Below are positions 33,862 through 55,589 of a DNA stretch of 64,000 bases, in pieces. Position numbers and translations under genes: made by a program. The first letter of the stretch is position 1, and each line of letters begins with the position of its first letter. This stretch comes from Sphingobium yanoikuyae (GTDB lineage Bacteria; Pseudomonadota; Alphaproteobacteria; Sphingomonadales; Sphingomonadaceae): the NCBI RefSeq assembly GCF_013001025.1, contig NZ_CP053021.1, positions 1,240,001 to 1,304,000 on the forward strand, in the 5' to 3' direction. Under the pieces are notes generated by a model. That model was not told where the DNA came from and made no database searches. It saw only the letters and a program-made list of their open reading frames with translations.

Positions 33862-33875
<14 letters not shown>

Positions 33876-37501: not shown

Positions 37502-38854
37502 TCAGGCGGCCGGCGCGTGGATGGCACGCGCGGCGATGGTGGGGGCGAGGTAGCGCAGGGCCATGCGGAAGGAGAGCAGGGCGACGACCGAGCAGAAGGT
37601 GACGACCACCGCCAGCGACTGGCCCAGCGCGGCTTCCGACCGGAAGACATATTGGGTGAGCGCAGCGACGATCGCCGGGCCGGCGCCCAGGCCCAATATG
37701 GTGAAGACGAACAGGAAGAAGGCCAGCATCCGCGCGCGGATCGTCGCCGGCGCGATCAGCCCCATGATCGAGGAGACATAGACCATGAAGGGCACGGTGA
37801 TGAACTGCGCCACGCAGTAGCAGACCAGGAAGACATAGACGTTGGTGGCGAAGAACATATAGGCGATCACCGGCAGGAAGCCGAGGATCAGCCAGCTGTA
37901 GAAGCGCAGATGGGCGTCCGTCATGCCGCGCGTGAACAGGCGGTCGACGATCCAGCCGTTGATCACCAGCGACACGGCCGACACGATGTTCATCAGGCTC
38001 AACGCCACGCCATATTGCACCGGCTTCCAGCCGAAATGCCGTTCGATATAGGCGGGCACCCAGTTGGTCATCGAATAGCCGCACATGGCAAGGCAGGATG
38101 TGCCGACCAGCATCAGCGCCAGCAGCCGCCAGTTCTGGCGCACGAATCCGGCGATCGCGCCCTTTTCCGCGACCGGGCGCGCGGCCCTGGTCGCGCCGCG
38201 GCGGCCCGGTTCGGGGAAGGTGAAGACCAGCAGGGCGATGAGCAGGCCGGGCACGCCGACCATCATCATCACCAGCTGCCAGGGCTGGGCCGGGCCATGG
38301 AAGGGAATATGGATGCCGCTATGCGCGGCGGCGAAGGCGATGGCGACGCCGCCTAGGGCAAATGCTGTCGCAGAGCCGACCTTGCCCGCCATCTGGAAGG
38401 TGGAGGTGGCGCGGGTCAGCAGCCGCGGCGGGAAGGCGTCGGCGATCAGCGAATAAGCGGCGGGCAGCAGCGCCGCTTCCCCCACGCCAACGAAGATGCG
38501 GCCGACCAGCAGCGCCTCATAGCTTTGCGCGAAGCCGCAGGCGGTGGTGGCGACGGCCCAGAGCGCGACGCCGCCGAAGATGATCCAGCGGCGCGAATAA
38601 CGATCCGCCGCCCAGCCGAGCGGCAGGCCGAAAATGGCGTAGAAGATGGCGAAGGAGGTCGAGGTGATCATGCTGACCTGGACATCGCTGAGCAGCAGAT
38701 GCGCCTTGATCGGCGTGACCAGCATCGACACGATCAGCCGGTCGACCCAGGACAGGACATAGAGGCCGAACAGCACGGCCACCATCCACCAGGCGGTGCC
38801 CAGTTGCTGGGTATCGCCGCCGTCCGGGGCTCTCTCCTGGCTGGTCATCAGCAT
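37502..38854 (-). CDS. MFS transporter
   Basis: A 450-residue major facilitator protein with 12 predicted helices. The loop 2-3 signature is GLPLGWAADRYSRR near 85 and the first helix carries LYVLSWVDRLIVSM. It resembles the aromatic-acid/sialate-type transporters used for organic anions, so it probably imports the pathway substrate or its periplasmic oxidation product. The start is ATG 38854 or ATG 38848, behind GGGAAGGA. It lies between the dehydrogenase and ligase genes, as expected for an uptake step before CoA activation. Confidence 0.9.
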   Translation of the reverse strand: MLMTSQERAPDGGDTQQLGTAWWMVAVLFGLYVLSWVDRLIVSMLVTPIKAHLLLSDVQVSMITSTSFAIFYAIFGLPLGWAADRYSRRWIIFGGVALWAVATTACGFAQSYEALLVGRIFVGVGEAALLPAAYSLIADAFPPRLLTRATSTFQMAGKVGSATAFALGGVAIAFAAAHSGIHIPFHGPAQPWQLVMMMVGVPGLLIALLVFTFPEPGRRGATRAARPVAEKGAIAGFVRQNWRLLALMLVGTSCLAMCGYSMTNWVPAYIERHFGWKPVQYGVALSLMNIVSAVSLVINGWIVDRLFTRGMTDAHLRFYSWLILGFLPVIAYMFFATNVYVFLVCYCVAQFITVPFMVYVSSIMGLIAPATIRARMLAFFLFVFTILGLGAGPAIVAALTQYVFRSEAALGQSLAVVVTFCSVVALLSFRMALRYLAPTIAARAIHAPAA

Positions 38855-38882
38855 GATCCTTCCCTTCGCCCTTTTGCGTCTC

Positions 38883-40112
38883 TCAGCGTTGCGGCAATGC
38901 GTTGAGTTCGGCGATCTTGAGCTTGCCGAGCTGGGCCATGTGGACTTCGTCCGGCCCGTCGGCGAGGCGCAGGTAGCGCGCATTCATGAAGGCGGCGGCA
39001 GGCGGGAAGTCGCTGGCCATGCCGATGCCGCCGAACACCTGCATCGCCCGGTCGGCGACCGTCTGGGTCATGCGAGGGGCGACGATCTTGATCGCGGCGA
39101 TCAGATCCTTGGCGACCTTGTTGCCGTGGCGGTCCATCGCGTCGGCAGCCTTGAGCGTCAGCAGACGGGCCTGCTCGATCTCGCAGAAGGACAAGGCGAT
39201 ATCCTGGCGGATGCTGCCCTGATCGGCGAGCTTGCGGCCGAAGGCGACGCGGCTGTCGACGCGGCGGGCCATATATTCGAGCGCGCGCTGGGCCTGGCCG
39301 ATGAGGCGCATGCAGTGGTGGATGCGCCCCGGCCCCAGGCGGCCCTGGGCGATCTCGAACCCGCGTCCTTCGCCCAGGATCAGATTTTCCCTGGGCACGC
39401 GCACATCCTTGAAGACCATTTCGGCATGGCCGCCGGGCGAATGGACGGCGTTCATCACGTCGAGCGGGCGGACGATCTCTATCCCCGGCGTGTCGGCCGG
39501 GATCAGGATCTGCGAATGCTGCTGGTGGCGCGGCCGGTCCGCATTGGGTGTGCGACCGAGCAGGATATAGACTTTGGTCAGCGGATCGAGCGCGCCCGAA
39601 ATCCACCATTTGCGGCCATTGATGACATAGTGGTCGCCATCGGCGACGATCGTCGTTTCGACATTGGTGGCGTCGGACGAGGCGACGCCCGGCTCGGTCA
39701 TGACATAGCAGGAGCGAATATCGCCGGCGAGCAGGGGCTTGAGCCACTTCTCCTGCTGCTCGGGCGTACCGTAGCGGGCGAGCACCTCCATATTGCCGGT
39801 GTCGGGCGCGGAGCAGTTATAATATTCCGACGATCCGATCACCCGGCCCATCAGTTCGGCCAGCGGCGCATATTCGAGGTTGGTGAGGCCCGGACTCCAT
39901 GCCCCATATTCATGCGGCAGGAACAGGTTCCACAGGCCCGCTTCCTTCGCCTTGGCCTTGATCGTCTCGGTGCCCGGCCAGCGCTGCCACAGATGGGCGG
40001 GATCATGGTGGAAATGATCCCGTTCCTTCTCGATCGGATAGACATGGGCGTCCATGAAATCGGTGAGCTGCGCCCGCAGCGCCTGCACCTTGTCGGAATA
40101 TTCGAAATCCAT
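38883..40112 (-). CDS. acyl-CoA dehydrogenase, ACAD11/LvaC type
   Basis: A 409-residue acyl-CoA dehydrogenase of the ACAD10/11 group. The C-terminal [16 protein letters not shown] motif is the mark of that group. The FAD-binding segment is [17 protein letters not shown]. In ACAD11 and LvaC, such enzymes act with an APH-type kinase on phosphorylated 4-hydroxyacyl-CoA, removing the phosphate and yielding an enoyl-CoA. The kinase gene at 40919 is in the same operon, so this role is likely. The FAD enzyme is soluble. Confidence 0.87.
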
Positions 40113-40155: not shown

Positions 40156-40917
40156 TCAGGTCAGCGTGAGGCCGCCGTCCACGATCAGCGTCTGCCCGCA
40201 GATGTAGGTGGAGAGGGGGGAGGCGAGGAACAGGGCGACGCCCGCCATCTCCTCCACCGAGCCGAAGCGGCCGAGCGGGATGCGCGACAGCGCGCGATCG
40301 CGCCGCTCGTCATTGTCCATCGTCACCTTGGTCATCTTGGTATCGACCAGGCTGGGGGCGATGCCGTTGACGCGGATGCCCTCGCCCGCCCAGGCGATGG
40401 CGAGCGCGCGGACCAGATTGACGGCGCCGGCCTTGGACGCGGCATAGGCGGGGTTGCCGAAGGTTGCCTTGAACCCGCCGATCGAGCTGACGACGATGAC
40501 GGCGCCTTTCGTGGCGGCCAGCGCATCCCTGAAGCGGTTGGAGATGTGGAGGATGGAGTCGAGATTGACCGCCATCACCTTGTTCCAGCCGTCGACCTCG
40601 AACTCCTGGCGGCGATAGAGGACGGCGCCCTGCGAATGGATGAGGATATCGAGCGCATCGAAAGGGGCGGGTGCGGCGGCGATCGCGGCGGGATCGCTGA
40701 CATCGACCTGGGTATAGCCGATGCCGTCCAGATCCGATCCTTCCTCGCCGGCATAATCGGCGGCGCTGGCACGCGTGCCCCAGACATGGACGTGGGCGCC
40801 GCGCTTCAGAAAGGCCTGGGCCATGCCATTGCCGATGCCGCTCGATCCGCCGACCACCAGCACCGTCTTTCCGGTGAAGTCCAGTTCATTGCCCAAGGGG
40901 GAACATCCTTCCTGCAT
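40156..40917 (-). CDS. SDR oxidoreductase (LvaD position)
   Basis: A 253-residue SDR with a [14 protein letters not shown] nucleotide motif, the IHSQGAV loop, Ser in VSSIGG and a YAASK active site (Tyr/Lys). The late [13 protein letters not shown] pattern is usual. It probably interconverts a hydroxyacyl- and ketoacyl-CoA. In the Lva pathway the SDR LvaD reduces the 4-keto acyl-CoA; the position here between kinase and dehydrogenase genes matches. It starts 1 base after the kinase gene. Confidence 0.86.
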
Positions 40918-40918
40918 G

Positions 40919-41941
40919 TCAGCGGATCAGCGCCTGGGCGCGGTCGAAAAGGTGGATGGCGCGGCTGTGGAGCCGGTCGCCGGTGTCGCGTGGCGCCTTG
41001 CCGGCACAGGCGCGGGCATGGGTGCCCTCCAGCAGGATGCCGAGCTTGTAGCAGGCGAGTACATGATACCAGTCGACCGCCGACAGATTGCGCGCGGAGC
41101 CGGCGCTATAGCGCGCGACCAGTTCGGCGGGCGTCGGGAAACCCTCCCACGGCGTGACCGACACGGTGCTGGCGCCGCTGCCGTCGGGCCAGGTGGCGAG
41201 CACCCAGCCCAGGTCCAGCAGCGGATCGCCGATCGTCGCCAGTTCCCAGTCGATGATCGCGGCAAGATCGCCGCTGTCGGGGCGGTACATGACATTGGCG
41301 AGATGATAGTCGCCATGCATGATGCCGGGGGTAAAATCGGCCGGGCGGTGCCGTTCCAGCCAGGCGGCGATGGCGTCGACGCTGGGCAGCGCCTGCGGCC
41401 CGGTCCAGTCGGAAAATTCGCCATAGCCGGCAAGCTGGCTGCGCCAGCGATCGACCTGGCGGCCGAGGAAATTGTCGGGCCGGCCGAAATCGGAAAGGCC
41501 GAGCGCCTGATGATCGAGCGCGCCCAAGGCGGCGATGCCGTCGACCAGGGCCAGTCCCATGGCGTGGCGCACCGCGGGCGACCCGGCATGGGGCATGGGC
41601 AACTGGCCGACCGGATTGAAGCCATCGACCGGCTCCATCAGGTAGAAGGCGACACCCAGCACATCCTCATCACCGCAATCGGCGATCAGCGCGGGATGGG
41701 GAACATTGGTGCCGGCGATGGCGCGCAGCAGCCGTGCTTCTCGCCGCATCGTTTCATTGCTGTTGGGGCGGGGGTGCGCCGGCGGACGGCGGAAGATATA
41801 GTCGCGGCCGTCGCGGGTCAGGCGCAGCAGGATATTCTGCGTCCCCCCGGCAAGCGGCGTCACGTTGTCGATCGGACCGGCGCCAAGCCCCTGATCCGTC
41901 ATCCACGTCGCCAGCGACTCGATGTCGACCGCTGATTCCAC
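40919..41941 (-). CDS. APH-fold acyl-CoA kinase (ACAD11 N-domain/LvaA-like)
   Basis: A 340-residue aminoglycoside-phosphotransferase-fold kinase. The catalytic loop is IMHGDYHLANVMY, the metal-binding motif is IIDWELATIGDP, and an N-terminal LAGGTQNILLRL loop binds ATP. Such proteins are fused to dehydrogenases in human ACAD10/11 and separate as LvaA in Pseudomonas putida, where they phosphorylate the 4-hydroxyl of acyl-CoA. It is the first gene of the 13-kb operon. It starts at GTG 41941. A small LvaB-like partner is not seen here. Confidence 0.84.
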   Translation of the reverse strand: MESAVDIESLATWMTDQGLGAGPIDNVTPLAGGTQNILLRLTRDGRDYIFRRPPAHPRPNSNETMRREARLLRAIAGTNVPHPALIADCGDEDVLGVAFYLMEPVDGFNPVGQLPMPHAGSPAVRHAMGLALVDGIAALGALDHQALGLSDFGRPDNFLGRQVDRWRSQLAGYGEFSDWTGPQALPSVDAIAAWLERHRPADFTPGIMHGDYHLANVMYRPDSGDLAAIIDWELATIGDPLLDLGWVLATWPDGSGASTVSVTPWEGFPTPAELVARYSAGSARNLSAVDWYHVLACYKLGILLEGTHARACAGKAPRDTGDRLHSRAIHLFDRAQALIR

Positions 41942-41995
41942 TTAGGCATCCCTCGCTTTTTTCGACTGTTAGCCGTCGATTAGGTCAATTGGATA

Positions 41996-42040
41996 ATGCA
42001 CTTGACGAACCATCATTGCAATGAGAAATTGCACTCATGG
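41996..42040. promoter_or_regulatory. dense motif cluster between the kinase operon and TetR gene
   Basis: Three sites lie close together: CAAGTGCATTAT on the minus strand, the perfect palindrome CATTGCAATG (42014-42023), and CCATGAGTGCAATTT (42026-42040, minus strand). The last overlaps the ATG of the TetR gene at 42037. One regulator could control both directions from here. Confidence 0.62.
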
Positions 42041-42756
42041 TCAGACTTCAACTCGCCAAGGCCGAAGATGCCACCCGCGGATCCGCTGCCGAGCAGATCA
42101 AGCAGGTGGCGTTGCGCCTGTTCGCCGAAAAGGGCGTCGATGGCGTGACCGTGCGCGAGATTGCGGCGGCGGCGGGGCAGAAGAATCACGGTGCCGTCAG
42201 TTACTATTTCGGGTCGAAGGAGGCGCTGGTCCGGGCGCTGGTGATGGATGGGGCGATGGCGCTGGAGCGGGAGCGCAATGCGGCGCTCGACGGGCTGGAG
42301 GCGCAGGGTGGGCCGCGCACGATCCGCGAAGTGGTGGAGATATTGGTGCGGCCGGTGCTGGCGCTGCCCGATAGCCATTATGTCCAGTTCATCGTCATCT
42401 TTGCCATGACCCATCGCGACATGATGCTGGATGCGATCGATCCGGCCTGGAACAATGCCTATGGCCGGTGCCTGGACCATTTGCGGGGCATGATGGCGGA
42501 TTTGCCGGTGGCGCTGCAGAACCAGCGCTTCGTGTTCATGGGGGCGTATCTGAGCGCCGTGCTGTCGGCCCGGCAGCGCGCGCTGGCCGACGAGAGCCGG
42601 GCGCATCCGATGTGGGGCAGCGAGGCGAGCGTCGAGCATTTCCTGCAGACGCTGGTGGCGCTGCTGGAGGCGCCGGCGGATCTTCCGGCGGCGATGCTCA
42701 GGCAACTGGGGCAACGCGACGGCGCTATTGCGGATCGACCCGGCCCTGTCGGTTGA
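42037..42756 (+). CDS. TetR-family regulator upstream of the F420 operon
   Basis: A 239-residue TetR protein. The HTH domain (about 20-68) reads AEQIKQVALRLFAEKGVDGVTVREIAAAAGQKNHGAVSYYFGSKEALV in pieces; the ligand domain follows. Its start codon is inside a motif cluster, so it may repress itself and the divergent kinase operon. It is 51 bases upstream of fbiC on the same strand and may be co-transcribed with the F420 genes. It is the second candidate for the island regulator. It ends with a Pro/Gly-rich tail. Confidence 0.87.
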   Translation: MVRLQLAKAEDATRGSAAEQIKQVALRLFAEKGVDGVTVREIAAAAGQKNHGAVSYYFGSKEALVRALVMDGAMALERERNAALDGLEAQGGPRTIREVVEILVRPVLALPDSHYVQFIVIFAMTHRDMMLDAIDPAWNNAYGRCLDHLRGMMADLPVALQNQRFVFMGAYLSAVLSARQRALADESRAHPMWGSEASVEHFLQTLVALLEAPADLPAAMLRQLGQRDGAIADRPGPVG

Positions 42757-42807: not shown

Positions 42808-45228
42808 ATGATGGCAGTTACGGAAAGGATTGGCGAAGCGGAGCACGCGCGCACGGCAGAGCTGCTGGCGATGCCGCTGGCCGAACTGATGGCGCAGGCG
42901 GCGGCGCTGCGCGACGAAGGCCATGGCCGGGTGCAGAGCTGGTCGCGCAAGATATTCATCCCGCTGACCCAGCTATGCCGCAATCTCTGCCATTATTGCA
43001 CCTTCTCGCAGCCGCCCCGGCCGGGCGAGAATGCCTATATGACGCGCGAGGAAGTGCTGGCGGTGGCACGCGCCGGCAAGGCGGCGGGCTGCACTGAGGC
43101 GCTGTTTACGCTGGGCGACAAGCCGGAACTGCGCTTTGCTGCCGCGCGCGAGGAACTGGCGCGGCTGGGCCATGACAGCACCCTGTCCTATCTGGCGGAA
43201 ATGGCGGCGCTGGTGCGTGACGAGACCGGACTGCTGCCGCACATCAATGCCGGGGTCATGACCCGCGAGGAAATGGCCGGTCTGCGCCGGGTGTCGGTGT
43301 CGCAGGGGCTGATGCTGGAGTCGGTGTCCGACCGGCTCTGCCGCAAGGGCGGCGCCCATTATCGCTCGCCCGACAAGGAACCGGCGGCGCGGCTGGAGAC
43401 GACCCGGCTGGCGGGTGAACTGGCCATTCCCTTCACCACTGGCATCCTGATCGGCATCGGCGAGACGCGCGAGGAACGGATCGAGGCGCTGGAGGCGATC
43501 CGCGACCTGCAGGATGGCTATGGCCATATCCAGGAAGTGATCGTCCAGAATTTCCGGGCGAAGGAACGCACGGTGATGGCCAATGCGCCCGAACCGGACA
43601 TGGACGATCTGCTGTGGACGATTGCGGTGGCGCGGCTGATCCTGGGGCCAGAGATGAATATCCAGGCGCCGCCCAACCTGTCGGCGGCGGACTTCCCCCG
43701 ACTGATGGCGGCGGGGATCAACGATTGGGGCGGGGTGTCGCCGGTGACGCCCGACCATGTGAACCCGGAAGCGCCCTGGCCGGCGGTCGAGCGGCTGCGC
43801 GCCGCGACCGAGGGCGAAGGGCGGATGCTGGTCGCCCGGCTGCCGGTCTATCCGGCCTATGCGCAGGATAATGACCGCTGGCAGGACCAGGCGATGGTTC
43901 GCCATGTGCTGGCCCATGCCGATGCAATGGGTTTTGCGCGCGAGGATAGCTGGTCGCCGGGCATCGCGCTGGAGCCGCGCGTCACGCGCCCGTCGGCGCT
44001 GCCCGTCGATCCCGCGATCGTGGCGATCGTCGACCGGGCGGTGACCGGGGCGCTGCTGGAAGAAGCCGAGATCGAGACGCTGTTCACCGCGCGCGAGACC
44101 GACCTGGAGCATGTCTGCGCCAGCGCGGACGCGCTGCGGATGCAGGAGATGGGCGACACGATCAGCTATGTCGTCAACCGCAACATCAACTACACCAATA
44201 TCTGCGCCTATAAATGCAGCTTCTGCGCCTTTTCCAAGGGCGACAAGGCGGAGGCGCTGCGCGGCAAGCCCTATGACCTGGACCTGGAGGAAGTGGTGCG
44301 CCGCACCCGCGAGGCGTGGGAGCGGGGCGGCACCGAAGTCTGCCTGCAGGGTGGCATCCACCCCCATTATACCGGCGACACCTATCTGAACCTGGCCCGC
44401 GCGGTAAAGGCGGCGGTGCCCGAGATGCACATCCACGCCTTTTCCCCGCTGGAAGTGTGGCAGGGGGCGGCGACGCTGGGCCTGCCGGTCGAGGATTTCC
44501 TGCGCCGGCTGAAGGCGGTGGGGCTCGACACGCTGCCCGGCACGGCGGCCGAGATACTGGATGACGAGGTGCGGGCGATCATCTGCCCGGACAAGCTGGA
44601 CACGGCGCAATGGCTGGAGGTGATCGAGACCGCGCATCGCGTCGGCTTCACCACCACCGCGACGATCATGTTCGGCCATGTCGACACGCCGCGCCACTGG
44701 GCAAGGCACCTGATCCGCATCCGCGACCTGCAGCGGCGGACCGGCGGCTTCACCGAATTCGTGCCCTTGCCCTTCGTCCATATGGAGGCGCCGATGGGCG
44801 TGCGCGGCCAGTCGCGCCATGGCCCGACCTTCCGCGAGGTGCGGTTGATGCACGCGGTCGCGCGGCTGGCGCTGCACCCGCATATCCGGTCGATCCAGAC
44901 CAGCTGGGTCAAGCTGGGGCCGGAAGGGGTGAAGGCCTGCCTGGAGGGCGGCGCCAATGACCTGGGCGGCACGCTGATGAACGAGAGCATCTCGCGCGCG
45001 GCCGGCACCCAGCATGGCCAGGAAATGCCGCCCGCCGCGACGGAGGCGCTGATCCGGTCGATCGACCGCACGCCCCGGCAGCGCAGCACCGCCTATGGCG
45101 GCGTAAGCGAAGACATTCACGCACGCGGAATGACCGCGGCGGAACTGACACCCATGGTCCTGACGCCCCCGCGCAAGCGGCGGCGCGAGGCCGATACGAA
45201 CCAGGAGAGGTTTGAATATGCAGAATGA
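42808..45228 (+). CDS. fbiC: FO synthase, CofG-CofH fusion
   Basis: An 806-residue double radical-SAM enzyme that makes the F420 chromophore FO from tyrosine and 5-amino-6-ribitylaminouracil. The N-terminal CofG half has CRNLCHYC (C57, C61, C64) and the C-terminal CofH half has CAYKCSFC (C466, C470, C473). The fusion order is as in actinobacterial FbiC. A GGAGCGGG site precedes the ATG at 42808. The gene overlaps the next by 11 bases. It heads a five-gene F420 operon. Confidence 0.95.
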   Translation: MMAVTERIGEAEHARTAELLAMPLAELMAQAAALRDEGHGRVQSWSRKIFIPLTQLCRNLCHYCTFSQPPRPGENAYMTREEVLAVARAGKAAGCTEALFTLGDKPELRFAAAREELARLGHDSTLSYLAEMAALVRDETGLLPHINAGVMTREEMAGLRRVSVSQGLMLESVSDRLCRKGGAHYRSPDKEPAARLETTRLAGELAIPFTTGILIGIGETREERIEALEAIRDLQDGYGHIQEVIVQNFRAKERTVMANAPEPDMDDLLWTIAVARLILGPEMNIQAPPNLSAADFPRLMAAGINDWGGVSPVTPDHVNPEAPWPAVERLRAATEGEGRMLVARLPVYPAYAQDNDRWQDQAMVRHVLAHADAMGFAREDSWSPGIALEPRVTRPSALPVDPAIVAIVDRAVTGALLEEAEIETLFTARETDLEHVCASADALRMQEMGDTISYVVNRNINYTNICAYKCSFCAFSKGDKAEALRGKPYDLDLEEVVRRTREAWERGGTEVCLQGGIHPHYTGDTYLNLARAVKAAVPEMHIHAFSPLEVWQGAATLGLPVEDFLRRLKAVGLDTLPGTAAEILDDEVRAIICPDKLDTAQWLEVIETAHRVGFTTTATIMFGHVDTPRHWARHLIRIRDLQRRTGGFTEFVPLPFVHMEAPMGVRGQSRHGPTFREVRLMHAVARLALHPHIRSIQTSWVKLGPEGVKACLEGGANDLGGTLMNESISRAAGTQHGQEMPPAATEALIRSIDRTPRQRSTAYGGVSEDIHARGMTAAELTPMVLTPPRKRRREADTNQERFEYAE

Positions 45229-45883
45229 GGCTTTGGCGACGATCGCCGTGCTTGGCGGGACCGGCAAGGAAGGTGGCGGCCTGGCGCTGCGCTGGGCGCA
45301 CAAGGGGCACAAGGTCATCATCGGCAGCCGGACCGCCGAGCGGGCGCAGGAAGCGGCCGACGCGATGAACGCGACGCTGGGCGGGAGTTCGGTTGTCGGC
45401 GCGGCCAATCCCGATGCGGCGGCGCAGGCCGACATCATCGTGCTGGCCGTGCCCTATGCTGCGCAGCAATCGACGGTGAAGGATGTCGCCGACGCGCTGG
45501 CGGGCAAGATATTGATCGACGTGACCGTGCCGCTGGTGCCGCCCAAGGTCAGCCGGGTGCAGTTGCCCGAGGGCGGATCGGCGGTCGAGGCGGTGCAGAA
45601 GATGCTGGGCGAGGGCGTCCGCGTCGTGTCCGCCTTCCAGAATATCAGCGCGCATCATTTGACCAAGCTGGACGAGGAGATCGAGTGCGACGTGCTGGTC
45701 TGCGCCGACGACAGCGAGGCGGCGGATCAGGTGGTCGCACTGGCGCAGGAAATCGGCCTGCGCGCCTGGAATGCCGGCCCCTTGTGCAATTCGGTTGTTG
45801 CAGAAGGACTTACGTCGGTCTTGATTGCGCTCAATCGGCGGTACAAGGTACCCGGATCGGGTATTCGCATCACCGGAGTGTAA
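45218..45883 (+). CDS. NADPH:F420 oxidoreductase
   Basis: A 221-residue Rossmann protein of the F420-dependent NADP reductase family. The N-terminal loop AVLGGTGKEGGGLALRWAHKGH and the following IIGSRTAERA, an NADPH phosphate-binding arrangement, are characteristic. It should regenerate F420H2 from NADPH. The ATG at 45218 follows CAGGAGAGG. It overlaps fbiC, which supports co-expression of cofactor synthesis and reduction. No glucose-6-phosphate F420 reductase (Fgd) is seen in the window. Confidence 0.92.
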   Translation: MQNEALATIAVLGGTGKEGGGLALRWAHKGHKVIIGSRTAERAQEAADAMNATLGGSSVVGAANPDAAAQADIIVLAVPYAAQQSTVKDVADALAGKILIDVTVPLVPPKVSRVQLPEGGSAVEAVQKMLGEGVRVVSAFQNISAHHLTKLDEEIECDVLVCADDSEAADQVVALAQEIGLRAWNAGPLCNSVVAEGLTSVLIALNRRYKVPGSGIRITGV

Positions 45884-45892
45884 GCTGCATCC

Positions 45893-46666
45893 ATGATAGT
45901 CGCACCGGCCGCCGTCACATTATCGGCCCTGAACGGGGTTCCCATGGTTGCGCCGGGCGACGATTTGTCGGCCATGCTGCTGTCGGCCTGCCATGCCAAT
46001 GGCCTGCCGCTGCAGGATGGCGACATCGTCGTGCTGGCGCAGAAGATCATATCCAAGGCGGAGGGACGCGCAGTGCCGCTGGCCAGCGTGTCGCCCTCGG
46101 AGGAGGCGATCGACCTGGCAGCGCAATGCCACAAGGATCCCCGGCTGGTCGAACTGATCCTGTCGGAGAGCGAGAAGCTGATGCGGGTCCGGCCGGGCGT
46201 ACTGATCGTGCGCCATCGGCTGGGTCTGGTGCTGGCCAATGCCGGGATCGACCAGTCCAACATCGCGCAAGATGGGGATGGCGTCGCGCTGCTGCTGCCG
46301 CTCGATCCCGATGGCAGCGCTGCGGCGCTGCGGCAGGCGGTGCGTGATGCCCTGGGGATCGATATCGCGGTGGTCATCATCGACAGCCTGGGCCGGGCCT
46401 GGCGCAAGGGCACCTGCGGCGTGGCGATCGGCGTGGCCGGAATGAGCGGCCTGCTCGACCTGCGCGGCGCGCCGGACCTGCATGGCCGGCCGTTGCAGAC
46501 CAGCGAACTGGGCCTGGCCGACGAGGTGGCGGCCGCCGCCTCGCTGATCATGGGGCAGGCCGGGGAAGGCCGGCCGATCGTCGTGGCGCGCGGCATTGCG
46601 CGGGGCCGCAATGAGGGCAGCGCGGCCGAACTGATCCGCGAACCGGCGATGGACCTGTTCCCATGA
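45893..46666 (+). CDS. cofE: coenzyme F420-0:L-glutamate ligase, single-domain
   Basis: A 257-residue glutamate ligase that adds the polyglutamate tail. The motif QKIISKAEGR near residue 50 and LVVxxRHRLGLVLANAGIDQSN (in pieces) near 105 are typical of CofE. The protein ends at about the length of archaeal CofE. It lacks the C-terminal FMN-reductase domain of FbiB that reduces dehydro-F420. The gene starts at ATG 45893, 9 bases after the reductase stop. Confidence 0.94.
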   Translation: MIVAPAAVTLSALNGVPMVAPGDDLSAMLLSACHANGLPLQDGDIVVLAQKIISKAEGRAVPLASVSPSEEAIDLAAQCHKDPRLVELILSESEKLMRVRPGVLIVRHRLGLVLANAGIDQSNIAQDGDGVALLLPLDPDGSAAALRQAVRDALGIDIAVVIIDSLGRAWRKGTCGVAIGVAGMSGLLDLRGAPDLHGRPLQTSELGLADEVAAAASLIMGQAGEGRPIVVARGIARGRNEGSAAELIREPAMDLFP

Positions 46667-47604
46667 GCGTGCTGGCCCTGGCCGGGGGCGTCGGCGGCGC
46701 CAAGTTGGCCAATGGCCTGGCCGGCGTCGTGCCGCCGGGCGCACTGACCATTGCCGTCAACACGGGCGATGATTTTGTCCATATGGGCCTGCATATCTCG
46801 CCCGACATCGACAGCGTCACCTATGCGCTGGCGGGCATGAACGATAGCGTGCGGGGCTGGGGCGTGGCCGATGAAAGCTGGGCCTTCATGGACGCGACAA
46901 GGCGGCTGGGCGGCGAAAGCTGGTTCAACCTGGGCGATCGGGATCTGGCGACCCATGTGCTGCGCACCGCCTTGCTGCGCGAGGGCACGTTGTCTTCGGT
47001 CACTGCCGACATCGCCGCGCGGCTGGGCATCGGGCCCGCGATCGTGCCGATGAGCGACGATCCGGTCCGGTCGATGATCGATACCGACCAGGGCGAAATG
47101 GCCTTCCAGGATTATTTCGTGCGCCATCAATGCGGGCCGCGCTTCAAATCGATCCGGTTCGACGGCGCAGCAGCGGCGCGGCCGAGCGCCGGGCTGCTGG
47201 CGGCGCTGGATGATCCCGCGCTGGAGGCGATCATTCTCTGTCCGTCCAACCCGATCCTGTCGATCGACCCGATTTTGGCGGTGCCCGGCGTGCGGGACCG
47301 GCTGGCAGCGCGGCGCGTGCCGTGCGTGGCGCTGTCGCCGTTCATCGCGGGACAGGCGGTCAAGGGGCCGGCGGCCAAGATCATGACCGAACTGGGCCTG
47401 CCGACGACGCCGGCGACGATCGCCCGCCATTATGACGGGCTGATCGACGGGCTGATGGTGGACGGTGCCGATGCGGCGGGCTGGTCCGACGATGGTCTGG
47501 CGGTGCGCAGTGCCGACATATTGATGCGCAATGTCGATCAGCAGCGGGCATTGGCCGCTCAGATGATCGATTTTGCGGCAGCCTTGCGGCGCGCGGCGCC
47601 ATGA
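46663..47604 (+). CDS. cofD: 2-phospho-L-lactate (or related) transferase
   Basis: A 313-residue enzyme of the CofD/FbiA family. It joins the phosphoryl-lactyl-type moiety to FO, giving F420-0. The N-terminal GGVGGAKLANGL and later NTGDD motif bind substrates; SNPILSIDPIL is typical. It overlaps cofE by 4 bases (ATGA) and cofC by 4 bases. All four synthesis genes are thus tightly coupled. Confidence 0.95.
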   Translation: MSVLALAGGVGGAKLANGLAGVVPPGALTIAVNTGDDFVHMGLHISPDIDSVTYALAGMNDSVRGWGVADESWAFMDATRRLGGESWFNLGDRDLATHVLRTALLREGTLSSVTADIAARLGIGPAIVPMSDDPVRSMIDTDQGEMAFQDYFVRHQCGPRFKSIRFDGAAAARPSAGLLAALDDPALEAIILCPSNPILSIDPILAVPGVRDRLAARRVPCVALSPFIAGQAVKGPAAKIMTELGLPTTPATIARHYDGLIDGLMVDGADAAGWSDDGLAVRSADILMRNVDQQRALAAQMIDFAAALRRAAP

Positions 47605-48179
47605 CCCTGTCCATCCTGATCCCGGCCAAGAGCTTCGCGCAGGGCAAGAGCCGGTTGGCGCAGGTTCTGGGGCCACGGGATCGGGCGGCGCTGTGCCGGC
47701 AATTATTGGGGCATGTGCTGGCAGTGGCGCGCGATGCGATCCCGGATTCGGCCGTGCATGTCGTCAGCGCCTGCCCGGAGGTGCGCGGTTTCGCGACCGA
47801 GCGGGGCGCGACTGTCCTGGCCGAGCGGGAACCCGGCCATGTGCCGGCGCTGATGGCGGCGATGCAGGCGTTGCCGGCCGATCGCCCGGTGCTGATCCTG
47901 AGCGCGGACCTGCCGATGCTGGCGGCCGCGGACCTGCGCGCGATGGTGCAGGAACCCGCCGATGTGGTGATCGCCACCGATCGTGAGGGGCAGGGGACGA
48001 ACGCGCTGCTGCTGAAGTGGCCCGGCCTCATTCCGCTGCGCTTCGGGCCGAAGAGTTGTGCTGCCCATGTCGGGGAAGCCGAACGAGCCGGACATCGCGT
48101 ATCGGTCATCCGGCGACCCGGTCTCGCCGACGATGTCGACCTGCCCGAGCATCTCCAAATATTTTCCGTTGGTGCATAA
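47601..48179 (+). CDS. cofC: phospholactate/3-phosphoglycerate/PEP guanylyltransferase
   Basis: A 192-residue nucleotidyltransferase fold protein of the CofC/FbiD family. The N-terminal ILIPAKSFAQGKSRLA and the later LILSADLPML metal loop are clear. It activates a 3-carbon phospho acid with GTP for CofD. Which of 2-phospholactate, PEP or 3-phosphoglycerate it uses cannot be read here. It overlaps cofD by 4 bases and ends the F420 operon. Confidence 0.92.
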   Translation: MTLSILIPAKSFAQGKSRLAQVLGPRDRAALCRQLLGHVLAVARDAIPDSAVHVVSACPEVRGFATERGATVLAEREPGHVPALMAAMQALPADRPVLILSADLPMLAAADLRAMVQEPADVVIATDREGQGTNALLLKWPGLIPLRFGPKSCAAHVGEAERAGHRVSVIRRPGLADDVDLPEHLQIFSVGA

Positions 48180-48251: not shown

Positions 48252-49424
48252 ATGGCGGAGGCATATATTGCGGCCGTGGCGCGCAGCGCCGGTGGCAAGC
48301 GGGGCGGCAGGCTGGCGGGGGTGCATCCTGCGGATCTGGCCGGGCGCGTGCTGGCGGGACTGGTGGGCCGCAGCGGGATCGATCCGGCCGCGATCGAGGA
48401 TGTCATCATGGGCTGTGCCTGTCCCGGCGGCGAGCAGGGCGCGAACATCGCCCGCAACGCCGTGCTGGCCAGCGGCCTGCCCGAATCCGTGCCCGGCACC
48501 CATGTCGACCGCCAGTGCGGATCGTCGCAGCAGGCGCTGCATTTCGCCGCCGCGACGGTGATGGCGGGCGTGCAGGACGTGGTGATCGCCGCCGGTGTCG
48601 AGAGCATGACGCGCGTGCCGATGGGGCTGCCCTGGACGCTGGCGGCCAAACATGGGTTCGGCACCTATCGCAGTCCGGGGATCGAGGCGCGCTATCCCGA
48701 CACGCCGTTCAGCCAGTTTGGCGGGGCCGAGATGATGGCGCGCAAATATGGCTTCGACCGTGCCGCGCTCGACGCCTATGCGCTGGAGAGCCATCATCGC
48801 GCGGCGGCGGCGACGCAGGCCGGCAAGTTCGATGCGGAGATCGTGCCGCTGGAGGTCGAGACCGCCGAGGGCGAAACGCTGGTCCACAAGGTGGATGAAG
48901 GCATCCGCTTCGATGCCAGCCTGGAGAAGATTGCCAGCGTCAAGCTGTTGACCGAGGGCGGGGTGATTTCCGCCGCCAATGCCAGCCAGATCTGCGATGG
49001 CGCCGCGGCGCTGCTGATCGTCAATGAGCGGGGCCTCAAGACCCATGGCCTGACGCCGCTGGCGCGGGTGCATGAAATGACCGTGCTGGGTCATGATCCG
49101 GTCATCATGCTGGAGGCGCCGATCCCGGCGACCGAGCGGGCGCTGGCGCGGGCAGGCATGACGCTGGGCGAGATCGATCTTTATGAAGTGAACGAGGCGT
49201 TCGCGCCGGTGCCGCTGGCCTGGGCCAAGGCGCTGGGCGCCGATCCGGCGCGGCTCAACGTGCATGGCGGGGCGATTTCGCTGGGCCATCCGTTGGGCGG
49301 ATCGGGCGCCAAGCTGATGGCGACGCTGGTCAGTGCCCTCCACGATCGTGGCGCGCGCTATGGCCTCCAGACCATGTGCGAGGCCGGCGGCATGGCCAAT
49401 GTGACGATCGTGGAACGGCTCTGA
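48252..49424 (+). CDS. acetyl-CoA acyltransferase (thiolase)
   Basis: A 390-residue thiolase. The nucleophile is Cys89 in DRQCGSS, the His is in GHPLGGSGA and the second Cys in MCEAGGMAN, so all catalytic residues are present. NEAFAP is also present. It should cleave a 3-ketoacyl-CoA in the last step of beta-oxidation. A hairpin follows the stop. It is probably its own transcription unit next to the F420 operon. Confidence 0.93.
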   Translation: MAEAYIAAVARSAGGKRGGRLAGVHPADLAGRVLAGLVGRSGIDPAAIEDVIMGCACPGGEQGANIARNAVLASGLPESVPGTHVDRQCGSSQQALHFAAATVMAGVQDVVIAAGVESMTRVPMGLPWTLAAKHGFGTYRSPGIEARYPDTPFSQFGGAEMMARKYGFDRAALDAYALESHHRAAAATQAGKFDAEIVPLEVETAEGETLVHKVDEGIRFDASLEKIASVKLLTEGGVISAANASQICDGAAALLIVNERGLKTHGLTPLARVHEMTVLGHDPVIMLEAPIPATERALARAGMTLGEIDLYEVNEAFAPVPLAWAKALGADPARLNVHGGAISLGHPLGGSGAKLMATLVSALHDRGARYGLQTMCEAGGMANVTIVERL

Positions 49425-49470: not shown

Positions 49471-51153
49471 TCAATTGGCTTCGTCGAGCAGGCGGCGGGC
49501 GATGACCTGGGCCTGGATTTCGCCGGCGCCCTCGAAAATGTTGAGGATGCGCGCGTCGGCCAGCAGGCGGCTGACCTGATATTCGGTGGCGAAGCCGTTG
49601 CCGCCATGGATCTGCAGCGCATTGTCGGCCGCAGCCCAGGCGACCCGCGCGCCGATCAGCTTGGCCATGCCGGCTTCCAGATCGCACCGCTTGTCCTCAT
49701 CCTTGCGCCGGGCGGCGAAATAGGTGAGCTGGCGCGCGCCCATGATCTCCGCCGCCATCATCGCCAGCTTGTTGGCGACGCGCGGGAAGTCGAAGATCGG
49801 CCGGCCGAACTGCTTGCGGTCGAGCGCATAGGAAAGGCCGATGTCGAGCGCTGCCTGAGCGACACCGATGGCGCGGGCGGCGGTCTGGATACGGGCGCTT
49901 TCGAAGGTCGCCATCAACTGCTTGAAGCCCTGGCCCTCGACCCCGCCGAGCAGATTGGCGGCAGGCACGCGGAAATCGTCGAAGCCGATCTCATATTCCT
50001 TCATGCCGCGATAGCCGATCACCTCGATCTCGCCGCCGCTCATGCCGGGCGTGGGGAAGGGGACGTCGACGGTGCCGCGCTGCTTGGGCGCGATCAGCAT
50101 CGACAGGCCGCTATAGTTGCGGGTGTCGGGATCGGTGCGGACCAGCAGGGTCATCACATCGGCGCGGGCCGCATGGGTGATCCAGGTCTTGTTGCCGCTG
50201 ACCCGATATTCGCCGTCGGCGAGCGTCGCGCGGGTGCGCAGTGCGCCAAGGTCGGAGCCGGTGTCAGGCTCGGTGAAGACGGCGGTCGGCAGGATCGCGG
50301 CATTGGCGATCTGCGGCAGCCAATGGGCCTTCTGCTCGGCGGTGCCGCCGGTCAGGATCAGTTCGGCGGCGATTTCCGACCGGGTGGCGAGGCTGCCGAC
50401 GCCGATCCAGCCGCGCGACAATTCTTCCGACACGACGCACATCGCGGTCTTGCCCATGCCAAGGCCGCCAAACTCTTCTGGAATCGTCATGCCGAACACG
50501 CCCATCTCGCCCAGTTCCTGGACCAGCGGCAGCGGGATGAGTTCATCCTTGAGATGCCATTCATGGGCGAAGGGCGCGACCTTCTCGTTCGACAAAGCGA
50601 AGAACTGGTCGCGCACCATGTCGAACATCTCGTCGAGGCCGCAATTTTCCAGCGTCGCCCGGCCGCGCGCATCGACCAGATGGCCGGCAATGGCGCTCTT
50701 CACTGCCTGGCCGCCGCCGCTGCGAATGAGGGTGCGCAGGGCCGGGGCGTCGAGCGCGGACAGATCGTCGGTCAGGTCGGTGGGGCGGATCACCTCGCCC
50801 TGATTCATCGGGATGCCGCCCAGCATCTGCGCGCCATATTCGGCGAAGAGCAATTGGGCGAGCAGTGCCTCGATCTCGCCGAAGCTGCCCTGGGCGTCGA
50901 GACTGGCCGCCCAGCTGGCGACTTCGCGCAGCATTTCGGCATAGGCGGCGAACCAGCCAAAGCCGTGGACGACATGCTGCTCGACATCGGCGAGGACGCG
51001 ATCGACCTTGCCGCCCTCGCTGCAGATTCGGGCCTTCACATGCGGGCGGGCGGCGGCGACGAAGGCGTGCGCGGCATCGGCTGCGCCCGACAGCAAGGCC
51101 GGCAGATCGGGCAGGACCAGGATATTCTTGTCCATCTCCATGGTCGCGCTCAT
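49471..51153 (-). CDS. acyl-CoA dehydrogenase with N-terminal extension, methylsuccinyl-CoA dehydrogenase-like
   Basis: A 560-residue flavoprotein: about 165 N-terminal residues of mostly helical sequence (including HGFGWFAAYAEMLREVA) and then a complete dehydrogenase body with TEPDTGSDLGALRT and the catalytic Glu in NIFEGAGEIQ. Both length and domain order resemble (2S)-methylsuccinyl-CoA dehydrogenase, so a branched dicarboxylyl- or 2-methyl-acyl-CoA is possible. No other ethylmalonyl-CoA pathway gene is in view. The ATG overlaps the upstream hydratase stop by 4 bases (ATGA). Confidence 0.82.
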   Translation of the reverse strand: MSATMEMDKNILVLPDLPALLSGAADAAHAFVAAARPHVKARICSEGGKVDRVLADVEQHVVHGFGWFAAYAEMLREVASWAASLDAQGSFGEIEALLAQLLFAEYGAQMLGGIPMNQGEVIRPTDLTDDLSALDAPALRTLIRSGGGQAVKSAIAGHLVDARGRATLENCGLDEMFDMVRDQFFALSNEKVAPFAHEWHLKDELIPLPLVQELGEMGVFGMTIPEEFGGLGMGKTAMCVVSEELSRGWIGVGSLATRSEIAAELILTGGTAEQKAHWLPQIANAAILPTAVFTEPDTGSDLGALRTRATLADGEYRVSGNKTWITHAARADVMTLLVRTDPDTRNYSGLSMLIAPKQRGTVDVPFPTPGMSGGEIEVIGYRGMKEYEIGFDDFRVPAANLLGGVEGQGFKQLMATFESARIQTAARAIGVAQAALDIGLSYALDRKQFGRPIFDFPRVANKLAMMAAEIMGARQLTYFAARRKDEDKRCDLEAGMAKLIGARVAWAAADNALQIHGGNGFATEYQVSRLLADARILNIFEGAGEIQAQVIARRLLDEAN

Positions 51154-52016
51154 CCTTCCCCCGCCTGCTTCTTGTTCGCCGATGCCATTGCCTTGGCATC
51201 CAGTCCGCCGACCAGATTGCCGGTCATCAGCTGATTATGGGCATGGGCGAGATGGTGCATGTGGAACACGCTATCCATCACCTGCCGCTTGCCGCGCGCA
51301 TCCTCGACGAAGTTGAACGCCTGCTTGGTCAGGGCCAGGCCGAACCGTTCATGCTGGGCGATCTCCGCGGCGATCTTGGCCACTTCCTCGCGCAGCGTCT
51401 CGCGCGGGAAAATCTCGTTCACCATGCCGAAATTATAGGCGCGCTGGGCCGGCATGCGGCGGCCGAGCAGCAGCAGTTCGCGCGCGACGCGGGTCGGCAG
51501 TTCGAAGGCATGGGCGAAATATTCGACCCCCGGCTGGGCCATGCGCTGCACCGGATCCTGGAAGAAGGCATCTTCCGACGCGATGATGAGGTCGCAGACC
51601 CAGGCCAGCATCAGCCCGCCGGCGATGCAGGCGCCCTGCACCATGGCGATCATCGGCTTGGGGATGTCGGCCCAGCGCCGGCACAGGCCCAGATAGCCGT
51701 CCTGTTCCAGCACATATTGGCGTTCGGCGCCGCCCTTGTTCAGATGGTCCCACCACATGCTGGTGCGCGTGCGCGGCATGTGGCTGTCCTTGTCCGGGGT
51801 GCCGATGTCATGGCCGGCGGAGAAATGCTTGCCCTCACCACCGAGCACGATCACCTTGACCCCGTCATCCTCGACCGCGCGCTTGAAGGCGTCGTCAAGC
51901 TGGCCGAGCAGCCGGTAATTCTGGGCATTGCCATATTGGGGGCGGTTCAGCATCACCCAGGCGACGCCGTCCACCACATTGTAGGTCACGAATTCGGGCT
52001 GCGCTTCTTCGGACAT
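51150..52016 (-). CDS. enoyl-CoA hydratase family protein, atypical
   Basis: A 288-residue crotonase-fold protein with the first oxyanion segment GGEGKHFSAGHD and a second GACIAGGLMLAWVCDL. A longer insert (SHMPRTRTSMWWDHLNKGGAERQ) follows the first. The region of the usual second catalytic Glu reads QDPVQRMAQPGVEYFAHA, which departs from classical hydratases. It may act as an isomerase, lyase or hydratase on a CoA ester. It sits in the CaiB/SDR/dehydrogenase operon. Confidence 0.8.
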   Translation of the reverse strand: MSEEAQPEFVTYNVVDGVAWVMLNRPQYGNAQNYRLLGQLDDAFKRAVEDDGVKVIVLGGEGKHFSAGHDIGTPDKDSHMPRTRTSMWWDHLNKGGAERQYVLEQDGYLGLCRRWADIPKPMIAMVQGACIAGGLMLAWVCDLIIASEDAFFQDPVQRMAQPGVEYFAHAFELPTRVARELLLLGRRMPAQRAYNFGMVNEIFPRETLREEVAKIAAEIAQHERFGLALTKQAFNFVEDARGKRQVMDSVFHMHHLAHAHNQLMTGNLVGGLDAKAMASANKKQAGEG

Positions 52017-52028
52017 CGTCCCTCTCCC

Positions 52029-52811
52029 TCAGCGCGGCGGCATGCGCAGGCCACCGTCGAGCCGCACATATTCGCCGTTCCAATAGTCATTCTCGATCAT
52101 CGCCAGCGCCATTGCGGCAAACTCCTCGGGCTTGCCAAAACGCTTGGGGAAGGGAACGGTGGCCGACAGCGCATCGCGCACCTTGTCGCTGGCCCGTGCC
52201 ATCAGCGGCGTGTCGAAAATGCCGGGCAGGATCGCATTGACGCGGATGCCTTCGCCCATCAGGTCGCGCGCCATCGGCAGGGTCAGGCTTACGATGCCGC
52301 CCTTCGACGCGGAATAGGCCGCCTGGCCGATCTGGCCGTCGACCGCCGCCGCGCTGGAGGTGTTGATGATGACGCCGCGCGCCTTGTCCTCCAGCGGGTC
52401 GAGGCTGAGCATGCCGGCGGCCGACTTGGCACAGCAGCGGAAGGTGCCGATCAGGTTGATCTGGATGATCCGTTCGAACTGGTCGGTCGGGAAGGCCTTG
52501 ATCTCGCCGGTCTCGCGGTCGCGGCTGGCGGTCTTGATGACATTGCCGGTGCCCGCGCAATTGACCAGGATACGTTCCTGGCCATGGGCGGCGCGCGCCT
52601 TGGCAAAGCCGGCATCGACCGAGGCCTCGTCGGTGACATCGACCTTGCAGAAGGTGCCACCGATGTCCGCCGCGACCTTCGTCCCGGTTTCCTCGTTGAA
52701 ATCGAACAGCGCCACCTTGGCGCCCTGCGCCGCGATGGCGCGGGCCGTCGCCTCGCCCAGACCCGATGCCCCGCCGGTGACGATGGCGGCTACCCCCTGG
52801 TCGATCTTCAT
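52029..52811 (-). CDS. SDR oxidoreductase, HSD10-like
   Basis: A 260-residue SDR. The nucleotide motif is VTGGASGLGEATARAI, the D-loop is KVDVTDEASV, and the active site is NTSSAAAVDGQIGQAAYSASKGG with YSASK. The long insertion after VNCAGT (residues TGNVIKTASRDRETG) is as in HSD10-type 3-hydroxyacyl-CoA dehydrogenases. It should oxidise a 3-hydroxyacyl-CoA. The ATG at 52811 overlaps the CaiB stop by 4 bases. A longer in-frame start was rejected. Confidence 0.88.
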   Translation of the reverse strand: MKIDQGVAAIVTGGASGLGEATARAIAAQGAKVALFDFNEETGTKVAADIGGTFCKVDVTDEASVDAGFAKARAAHGQERILVNCAGTGNVIKTASRDRETGEIKAFPTDQFERIIQINLIGTFRCCAKSAAGMLSLDPLEDKARGVIINTSSAAAVDGQIGQAAYSASKGGIVSLTLPMARDLMGEGIRVNAILPGIFDTPLMARASDKVRDALSATVPFPKRFGKPEEFAAMALAMIENDYWNGEYVRLDGGLRMPPR

Positions 52812-54061: not shown

Positions 54062-54160
54062 CGGCTGCCCGCCTTGACCGCTGTCATCGCCATCCGCTCC
54101 TGTCCCCGTCTATCTGCTGCATCGGTTGATGATTCTGATAGCGGGTGCAGGAATGGAGGG

Positions 54161-54182
54161 CAAGAATTATTGCACTATGGGA
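54161..54182 (-). promoter_or_regulatory. island operator motif before CaiB operon
   Basis: On the minus strand TCCCATAGTGCAATAATTCT matches the copy at 23721 over CCCATAGTGCAATA and again in CTTGC. It lies about 100 bases before the CaiB start at 54061, in the gap between it and the cytochrome c gene. Confidence 0.66.
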
Positions 54183-54193
54183 TACTTTTGGCG

Positions 54194-54580
54194 CTATTTC
54201 TTGGTAGCGCCGGCGAGATAGGCGAGCAGGTTGGCGCGATCGGCCGGGTTGGGCAGGCCGGCAAAGACCATGCGGCTGCCGGGGACGGAGGCGCTGGGCT
54301 TGGCGAGGAAGCCGTCGAGCGACTTGGCATCCCAGCGGATCTTGGCCTTTTGCATCGCCGGGGAATAGGTGAAACCGGGGACGGTGCCCGACGTGCGCCC
54401 GAACACGCCCGAGAGCGAGGGGCCGAGCTTCTTCACGCCCGGATCGACCGAATGGCAGACGGCGCAGCGGGCGAAGACCGCTTTGCCCTTGGTCGCGTCG
54501 CCCGTCTGGGCAAGCGCCGGGCCGGTAGCCGCGACTGCCATAGCGAACATCGTCACGCGCGAAACAAGCTTCATCGACAT
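54194..54580 (-). CDS. periplasmic class-I cytochrome c
   Basis: A 128-residue cytochrome c2-like protein. A signal peptide ends near ALAQTGD (about 25). The heme site is CAVCH, and the Met ligand is expected in SRMVFAGL. It is a soluble electron carrier that could accept electrons from the two PQQ dehydrogenases of the island. It is on the minus strand just upstream of the CaiB operon; the motif at 54161 is downstream of it. Confidence 0.9.
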   Translation of the reverse strand: MSMKLVSRVTMFAMAVAATGPALAQTGDATKGKAVFARCAVCHSVDPGVKKLGPSLSGVFGRTSGTVPGFTYSPAMQKAKIRWDAKSLDGFLAKPSASVPGSRMVFAGLPNPADRANLLAYLAGATKK

Positions 54581-54618
54581 CCTGATTCCTCTTCCCTTCT
54601 TCTCTGGTCAAAATCTAT

Positions 54619-54637: not shown

Positions 54638-54687
54638 CCAATAGCCGTCTGAGTCTGAACGGCGGTTGAAGCGGGAAGGATGCGGAA

Positions 54688-55584: not shown

Positions 55585-55589
55585 CAATC

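Follow-up and report, generated by a model that had tools for sequence, protein, structure and literature searches.

Outside the Actinobacteria and Archaea, coenzyme F420 is known from Oligotropha, Paracoccus, Paraburkholderia and Thermomicrobium, and in the two alphaproteobacterial genera, Oligotropha and Paracoccus, the cofactor has been confirmed in trace amounts (PMC8498797). The passages of that 2021 review dealing with these organisms describe a proteobacterial FbiC fusion and an Fno-type reductase, and treat what F420 does in such hosts as unknown, a minor or niche-specific function; according to the review, no F420-dependent enzyme had by then been studied experimentally in bacteria beyond the Actinobacteria, and the role of the cofactor in such bacteria still had to be established by experiment. 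Some work has come since, as the structure of a Thermomicrobium enzyme that depends on F420 (9hav) appeared in our fold comparisons (VIA-align). F420 genes in sphingomonads are also already in print: a sentence in a 2026 paper reports genes annotated for coenzyme F420 biosynthesis in six Novosphingobium strains (PMC13318209). Here we analyze an F420 operon in a 64,000-nt stretch of the Sphingobium yanoikuyae genome ("the window"; GCF_013001025.1, NZ_CP053021.1:1,240,001-1,304,000, forward strand). It shares with the systems of that review the FbiC fusion and a reductase of this kind; in contrast to what is described for Oligotropha and Paracoccus, its F420 genes form part of a defined catabolic cluster and are accompanied by a palindrome. 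None of the open-licence titles and abstracts examined describes this cluster.

In actinobacterial xenobiotic degradation, the npd picrate genes place an NpdG-type F420 reductase beside catabolic genes, while the F420 biosynthesis genes of those hosts lie elsewhere. The window shares the reductase beside catabolic genes but holds the whole biosynthesis set within the cluster. It also has the proteobacterial CofC/CofD/CofE set of the Mycetohabitans pathway to 3-phosphoglycerate (3-PG)-type F420, 3PG-F420, as outlined in the relevant part of PMC8764529. On the catabolic side, the cited passages on ACAD10 and ACAD11 describe phosphorylation of 4-hydroxyacyl-CoA, which brings it into beta-oxidation (PMC12440821, PMC11342911). 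A kinase and an ACAD11-like dehydrogenase are common to that route and the window; here they sit in one operon with a short-chain dehydrogenase (SDR) gene between them, and this module faces the F420 genes across a single intergenic region.

Results

The F420 operon and its setting

Five adjacent genes, fbiC, npdG, cofE, cofD and cofC (Table 1), were judged by curated NCBIfam cut-offs and all score above them; both radical S-adenosylmethionine (SAM) halves of FbiC are supported (TIGR03550 and TIGR03551, each above cut-off). The first-pass annotation, made from the sequence alone, had described these as one operon with 4- or 11-base overlaps. The genes stand, and so do the 11-base overlap of fbiC with npdG and the 4-base overlaps of cofE with cofD and cofD with cofC, but npdG and cofE are separated by a 9-base gap (the npdG frame is additionally open from a TTG at 45212). 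The regulator gene TetRb lies in the same orientation and ends 51 bases ahead of fbiC, so the transcription unit probably begins at TetRb. Three further points of that annotation were borne out: the operon carries its own predicted F420 reductase (npdG), it adjoins CoA-ester catabolic genes, on which Pfam and NCBIfam scans of the neighbours agree, and the host is a sphingomonad, its FbiC being 98% identical to that of Sphingobium scionense, the nearest named relative by this protein. A search of the 5.94-Mb host genome found a single fbiC. GC content stays at 0.634-0.682 in all 4-kb blocks of the window, so recent import is not indicated. A promoter scan of the window found none, and a terminator scan gave one terminator-like site, below the shuffled mean.

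We hold with modest confidence that this operon for F420 production and reduction belongs to the catabolic cluster, is controlled together with it by a TetR repressor, and supplies F420 that would most likely be spent by a luciferase-like monooxygenase (LLM)-class oxidoreductase encoded in the cluster. Genes, layout, conservation and co-occurrence were read from sequence, the last two in three genome sets that are samples from larger groups: 61 Sphingobium genomes (own genome included), 249 Sphingomonadaceae and 327 Alphaproteobacteria. Because fbiC is present in 29 of the 61 Sphingobium genomes and cofD in 30 (the extra one being G014), the interest lies in the operon's position and not in its presence; the pathway is ordinary in the genus, and what is new is its genomic setting.

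Conservation of the cluster

Gene order was followed by tblastn of the window proteins onto fetched loci, most of which were fetched by fbiC, so that presence of fbiC in these is by construction. FbiC of at least 70% identity occurs in 15 Sphingobium genomes, and in 12 of them the dehydrogenase-SDR-kinase block adjoins fbiC (G000, G008, G012, G017 (locus L002), G021, G026, G028, G029, G061, G065, G074 and G082). Of the remaining three, G016 is a contig fragment on which only the thiolase accompanies fbiC, and G001 and G023 have fbiC elsewhere and no cluster. The first-pass annotation had named, as one result that would overturn it, an operon that in most relatives stands apart from such islands; for orthologues this is not the case, with 12 inside, one fragment and two outside. 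The other 14 fbiC-positive congeners have a more distant fbiC, and no search for the cluster with its remaining genes was made in them; among them it is shown in G003 only, whose fbiC lies elsewhere. The ligase-dehydrogenase-SDR-kinase block is also found in Novosphingobium rosa (L016) and in Niveispirillum irakense (L017), a member of another family.

The later biosynthesis genes follow a complementary pattern. In six genomes (G000, G017, G021, G028, G029, G061) cofEDC lies inside the cluster and there is no other cofD match; another six (G003, G008, G012, G026, G074, G082) have a cluster without cofEDC and a cofD at a different place, accompanied by cofE and cofC in all five loci viewed (G003, G008, G012, G074, G082). 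This count leaves out G065 and G016, which are fragmentary with cofD near fbiC, and G001 and G023, which have no cluster. Where cofEDC is missing, npdG and the thiolase gene are spaced by 14 bases (G003, G008, G012, G026, G082) or 22 (G074). In a FastTree tree of cofD the in-cluster copies group with the Niveispirillum and N. rosa genes, which makes loss of cofEDC from the cluster the simpler reading. The G003 cluster keeps npdG without fbiC, which is on another contig with one stop reported in the matched stretch. Finally, in G167, a genome of another genus, the fbiC and npdG inside the cluster branch in a different clade, with support 100 in each of the two FastTree trees; judged by these trees, the same catabolic genes are paired there with F420 genes of another lineage.

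Some observations concern F420 genes on their own. An npdG of 86-89% identity is present without the cluster in G011, G010 and G022 (L152, L153, L154), in one conserved chromosomal neighbourhood; a TetRa-like gene adjoins it in G010 and G022, and glycogen genes in G011. The fbiC matches of G003, G005, G010, G011, G013 and G083 contain a stop within the matched stretch or come in two pieces, which may reflect the ends of matches, faulty assembly or gene decay.

A palindrome between the divergent operons

Between the kinase gene and TetRb lies a 21-base palindrome, TCAAnTGnATnATnCAnTTGA, which we propose as an operator. It is present in 20 of 21 aligned kinase/TetRb intervals, corresponding to 17 of 18 distinct genomes (three genomes are represented twice); the set includes Niveispirillum and the cluster of G095, which is without fbiC, and L016 differs at the first base. 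When the window is matched against the degenerate pattern, no other position comes below three mismatches; a second match, at 8709, has three, and 0.10 chance matches are expected at three or fewer. One site between a catabolic and an F420 operon that diverge from it is the layout a shared TetR repressor would need, and it suggests that such a repressor binds this predicted operator.

The palindrome is not a universal cluster feature: when 14 further loci were scanned, it was found only in L232 (G095, already in the aligned set) and in the Emcibacter metagenome-assembled genome (MAG) locus L018, where it stands upstream of TetRb in a different gene order. The same scan did not find it in L012, L013, L183, L020, L021, L062, L234, L236-L239 and L251. 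The arrangement is thus not general to every cluster. A TetRb homologue was likewise not detected by tblastn in the G294, G167 and G065 loci.

The LLM oxidoreductase co-occurs with fbiC

fbiC is carried by 36 of the 249 Sphingomonadaceae genomes. LLM homologues are found in 14 genomes of this set at E<=1e-50 and in 22 at E<=1e-20; all 22, spread over 17 genera, carry fbiC, and even homologues of only 34-48% identity are confined to carriers. The chance of this co-occurrence is 2e-22 by genome and 3e-14 by genus, neither of which corrects for the tree; no p-value given here corrects for kinship beyond the genus-level count. Within 50 kb, LLM and fbiC are linked in 8 of the 22 genomes (distances by eye, against a rough chance rate of 2.25%). 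As a control, homologues of the flavin reductase encoded in the same operon occur in 57 of the 249 genomes, only 14 of which carry fbiC (p 0.015); with an enrichment this mild, proximity alone does not account for the LLM pattern. In the alphaproteobacterial set fbiC is present in 53 of 327 genomes, two of which have it split into cofG and cofH, and at E<=1e-30 LLM homologues are again restricted to carriers (17/17). A less biased set is anchored on the LLM itself: six family genomes (own included) have an LLM of at least 75% identity and all six have fbiC, which lies within the cluster in four, elsewhere in G095, and on another contig in G239, where the cluster contig is 39 kb long. We infer that the LLM is the best candidate for the F420-consuming enzyme.

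A loose signature, EHH-x3-[DG]-G-Y-x-P, is present in 34 of 36 LLMs of fbiC carriers, the two of the host among them, and in none of five from non-carriers; it was written after viewing the alignment, on 40 fetched loci that were chosen from the match lists and include 5 of the 7 non-carriers, and is a lead only. A second LLM-class gene of the host (G000:C1:4183744-4184718, L210), far from the window, is 29% identical to the cluster LLM and has the same EHH..DGY motif; F420 may therefore be used by further enzymes of the host.

Among 72,556 records of a plasmid collection, screened with no control run, 14 contain LLM homologues (Rhodococcus 10, Streptomyces 2, haloarchaea 2), all from groups known to produce F420; a phage collection gave no LLM match. 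On plasmid pRZP2 of Rhodococcus sp. ZPP (L251), an actinobacterial megaplasmid, an LLM of 47.7% identity lies among comparable catabolic genes for a Zn-dehydrogenase, an AMP ligase, a phosphotransferase, acyl-CoA dehydrogenases, a thiolase with an OB-fold protein beside it, and a CoA-transferase. Unlike the window, the 33 kb viewed there have no annotated F420 biosynthesis gene or pyrroloquinoline quinone (PQQ) dehydrogenase, and they contain in addition two P450s and two phosphoenolpyruvate (PEP)-utilising enzymes. The OB-fold protein beside the Rhodococcus thiolase may be compared with the small gene next to the SCPx-type thiolase of the window.

Alternative readings of the LLM and of the operon

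Several observations count against the reading set out above. The nearest relatives of the LLM by both profile and fold are of the flavin mononucleotide (FMN) type (luciferases in the VIA-align comparison), and its NCBIfam scores (TIGR04027 88.6, TIGR03619 84.7) are all under cut-off; with FMN-type enzymes as its nearest solved relatives, the LLM is not a secure F420 user. In the alphaproteobacterial set at E<=1e-20, 28 of 35 genomes with a homologue are carriers and seven are not, although these seven are all weak matches (best E 7e-24 to 8e-21). In G001 and G023 orthologous fbiC-npdG is not part of the cluster, and G095 has a near-complete cluster with no F420 gene inside and a complete F420 set elsewhere. 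Finally, the 14-locus scan did not find the palindrome in the clusters of G216, G294, G167 and G065, nor in Emcibacter L020. G095, with neither fbiC nor npdG in place, also rules out npdG as an invariant cluster member, as G003 (L151) had suggested.

The FMN-type relatives bear directly on the cofactor of the LLM. It could be an FMNH2-dependent two-component monooxygenase (type II Baeyer-Villiger-like) that the flavin reductase at 23071 supplies, with a lactone product passing by way of the SMP-30 protein to the 4-hydroxyacyl-CoA kinase, and F420 serving some other pathway or cell enzyme. FMN-type luciferases at the top of the profile and fold rankings agree with this, as do the flavin-reductase and lactonase-like genes within the cluster and the EHH motif, which we take to be a link to bacterial luciferases. 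We nevertheless regard it as rather unlikely: in the family set even distant LLM homologues are confined to fbiC carriers, and the flavin reductase tracks F420 only weakly. NCBIfam names were rejected as a guide to the cofactor, TIGR03619 (F420) ranking first in 8/8 distant homologues from carriers and in 1/2 from non-carriers.

An FMN-type LLM would be reconciled with its fbiC co-occurrence if the flavin reductase had switched to F420H2, so that a chain from NpdG through F420H2 to FMNH2 fed the LLM. In two Emcibacter MAGs (L018, L020) a homologous gene does lie no more than about 3 kb from the fbiC operon, but homologues of 57-60% identity are found in genomes with no fbiC match (G085, G299, G307, G327), and we consider such a chain very improbable.

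The outlying fbiC copies raise a different question, namely whether a general-purpose F420 operon is simply carried in a large accessory island and serves unrelated enzymes (the Ddn-like protein, other LLMs). The patchiness of F420 genes in Sphingobium, the copies in G001 and G023, the G095 cluster and the similar LLM elsewhere in the genome are all compatible with this. We think it unlikely in view of the palindrome conserved between the two operons, the maintenance of the cluster across genera, the independent pairing in G167 and the complementary cofEDC pattern.

Returning to an F420 operon that belongs to the cluster, the proposal that its F420 would serve this pathway, though not in every cluster, is well supported by synteny, the palindrome, the G167 pairing and the family-set restriction of the LLM to fbiC carriers. 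This much of the first-pass annotation survives; its addition that the cofactor is not for general metabolism is not supported. The only fbiC in the genome would supply all F420, a second LLM is encoded elsewhere, and relatives keep cofEDC, or also fbiC, outside the cluster.

The Ddn-like protein and the predicted form of F420

Two nearby candidate F420 users had been named at the outset, a Ddn-like protein and the LLM. Both are located as described and have the expected domains (PF04075 and PF00296), but the Ddn-like gene lies outside the cluster and the LLM is closest to FMN-type enzymes. PF04075 is present in 10 of the 61 Sphingobium genomes; because all ten carry cofD, the Ddn-like protein is probably F420-linked, independently of the cluster. 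It is ruled out as the pathway's F420 user, as the cluster exists in seven congeners without a PF04075 match (G003, G008, G012, G026, G028, G061, G065).

The best PDB match of CofC is 7p97. Aligned with 7p97 and 6bwg, its RFGPKS stretch places Gly where Mrhiz-CofC has S162, and Gln occupies the His145 position. In the part of PMC8764529 that deals with these residues, Ser162 is diagnostic of 3-PG-type CofC, and the Mycetohabitans enzyme carries Ser162 and His145. The residues of the window CofC do not support 3PG-F420 as the product, and because of the Gly at the diagnostic position a 2-phospholactate- or PEP-derived F420 is expected. CofE, of 257 aa, has PF01996 as its sole Pfam domain: the C-terminal reductase domain of FbiB is not present, so that no dehydro-F420 reductase is fused to CofE as in a PEP route of the FbiB type (a stand-alone reductase was not searched for).

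Genes of the catabolic cluster

Cluster genes were assigned by Pfam and NCBIfam scans of the window proteins. The left arm reads PQQ dehydrogenase, TetRa, enoyl-CoA hydratase, flavin reductase, double CoA-transferase, LLM, SnoaL-like protein and Zn-dehydrogenase. The middle arm, on the opposite strand, comprises SMP-30-like protein, small protein, SCPx-type thiolase, FadB-like enzyme, PQQ dehydrogenase, acyl-CoA ligase, major facilitator superfamily (MFS) transporter, ACAD11-like dehydrogenase, SDR and kinase. To the right, TetRb-fbiC-npdG-cofE-cofD-cofC-thiolase is followed by an acyl-CoA dehydrogenase/CoA-transferase/thiolase block (49471..61166) that is kept in some relatives only. Both parts of an ACAD10/11-like module, kinase and dehydrogenase, are present, and because they match ACAD11 the pathway probably passes through a 4-hydroxyacyl-CoA. 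The LvaA/LvaC pair is a comparable 4-hydroxyacyl-CoA system.

Table 1. Features of the window, with family or structure matches (bits/cut-off where given)
Feature	Position	Strand	Match	Remark
Ddn-like protein	3875..4462	-	PF04075 90.8/22; Ddn chains E 1.6e-20	outside conserved cluster
Second PQQ dehydrogenase and second TetR (TetRa)	19166..22151	+		left end of conserved cluster
Flavin-reductase-like split-barrel protein	23071..23712	+	PF01613; 4z85 E 2.1e-31	
Fused double CoA-transferase family III protein	23758..26253	+	PF02515 in two stretches	
LLM-class oxidoreductase	26290..27297	+	PF00296	candidate F420 user
SMP-30/gluconolactonase-like protein	29178..30230	-	PF08450	possible lactonase
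Small gene	30233-30649		no Pfam match at E<=1e-5	beside SCPx-type thiolase
SCPx/lipid-transfer-type thiolase	30652..31803	-	PF22691	
FadB/FadJ-like bifunctional beta-oxidation enzyme	31800..33875	-	PF02737 and PF00378	FadJ model under cut-off
PQQ2, PQQ-dependent alcohol dehydrogenase	33862..35949	-	TIGR03075 489.5/480.05	with cytochrome domain
Acyl-CoA ligase	35955..37490	-	PF00501 (longer frame)	generic acyl-CoA synthetase models under cut-off
MFS transporter	37502..38983	-	PF07690	true start probably gives shorter protein
ACADa, ACAD11-like acyl-CoA dehydrogenase	38883..40112	-	2wbi (ACAD11) E 5e-122	
SDRb, short-chain dehydrogenase	40156..40917	-	PF13561	
APH-fold kinase	40919..41941	-	PF01636; 8v3v (ACAD11) E 6.8e-27	like ACAD10/11 kinase domain
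Palindrome, 21 bases	41985..42005			proposed operator
TetRb, TetR-type regulator	42037..42756	+	PF00440	first gene of F420 operon
fbiC, fused FO synthase (CofG+CofH radical SAM)	42808..45228	+	NF006687 1139.8/1018	806 aa
npdG, NADPH:F420 oxidoreductase	45218..45883	+	TIGR01915 225.1/149.8	
cofE, F420-0 gamma-glutamyl ligase	45893..46666	+	TIGR01916 257.2/180.65	
cofD, phospholactate/PEP transferase	46663..47604	+	TIGR01819 272.3/257.45	
cofC, guanylyltransferase	47601..48179	+	TIGR03552 138.9/105	Gly at 3-PG-diagnostic Ser position
ThioA, thiolase	48252..49424	+	NF005077 691/590	directly after npdG in relatives without cofEDC
Second catabolic block	49471..61166	mostly -		acyl-CoA dehydrogenases, enoyl-CoA hydratase, SDR, CoA-transferases, thiolase, cytochrome c, MaoC-like protein, alcohol dehydrogenase

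Discussion

In the scheme we propose, FbiC would make FO, CofC and CofD would attach an arm derived from 2-phospholactate or PEP, and CofE would add glutamates; NpdG would reduce the resulting F420 with NADPH, or run in reverse. We infer that a TetR repressor bound at the palindrome controls both the F420 operon and the divergent kinase/acyl-CoA dehydrogenase operon, and such shared control would mean that F420 is made when substrate is present. The PQQ enzymes may oxidise an alcohol, whose acid would be activated to the CoA ester and degraded via a 4-hydroxyacyl-CoA, with the F420 most likely consumed by the LLM of the cluster.

A more specific version of this scheme, in which a substrate-controlled F420 supply is joined to an F420 enzyme from the bacterial-luciferase branch of LLM proteins, as the EHH motif and luciferase-like fold would have it, is possible but tentative. 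If true, it would mean a further, separate switch to F420 in the luciferase fold, common to the Rhodococcus clusters. Should the LLM use F420, F420 enzymology would gain a luciferase-type branch, as would searches for degradation enzymes that depend on this cofactor. Altogether, a cultivable Sphingobium with F420 genes beside an apparently pathway-specific switch would make the role of F420 in these bacteria directly testable.

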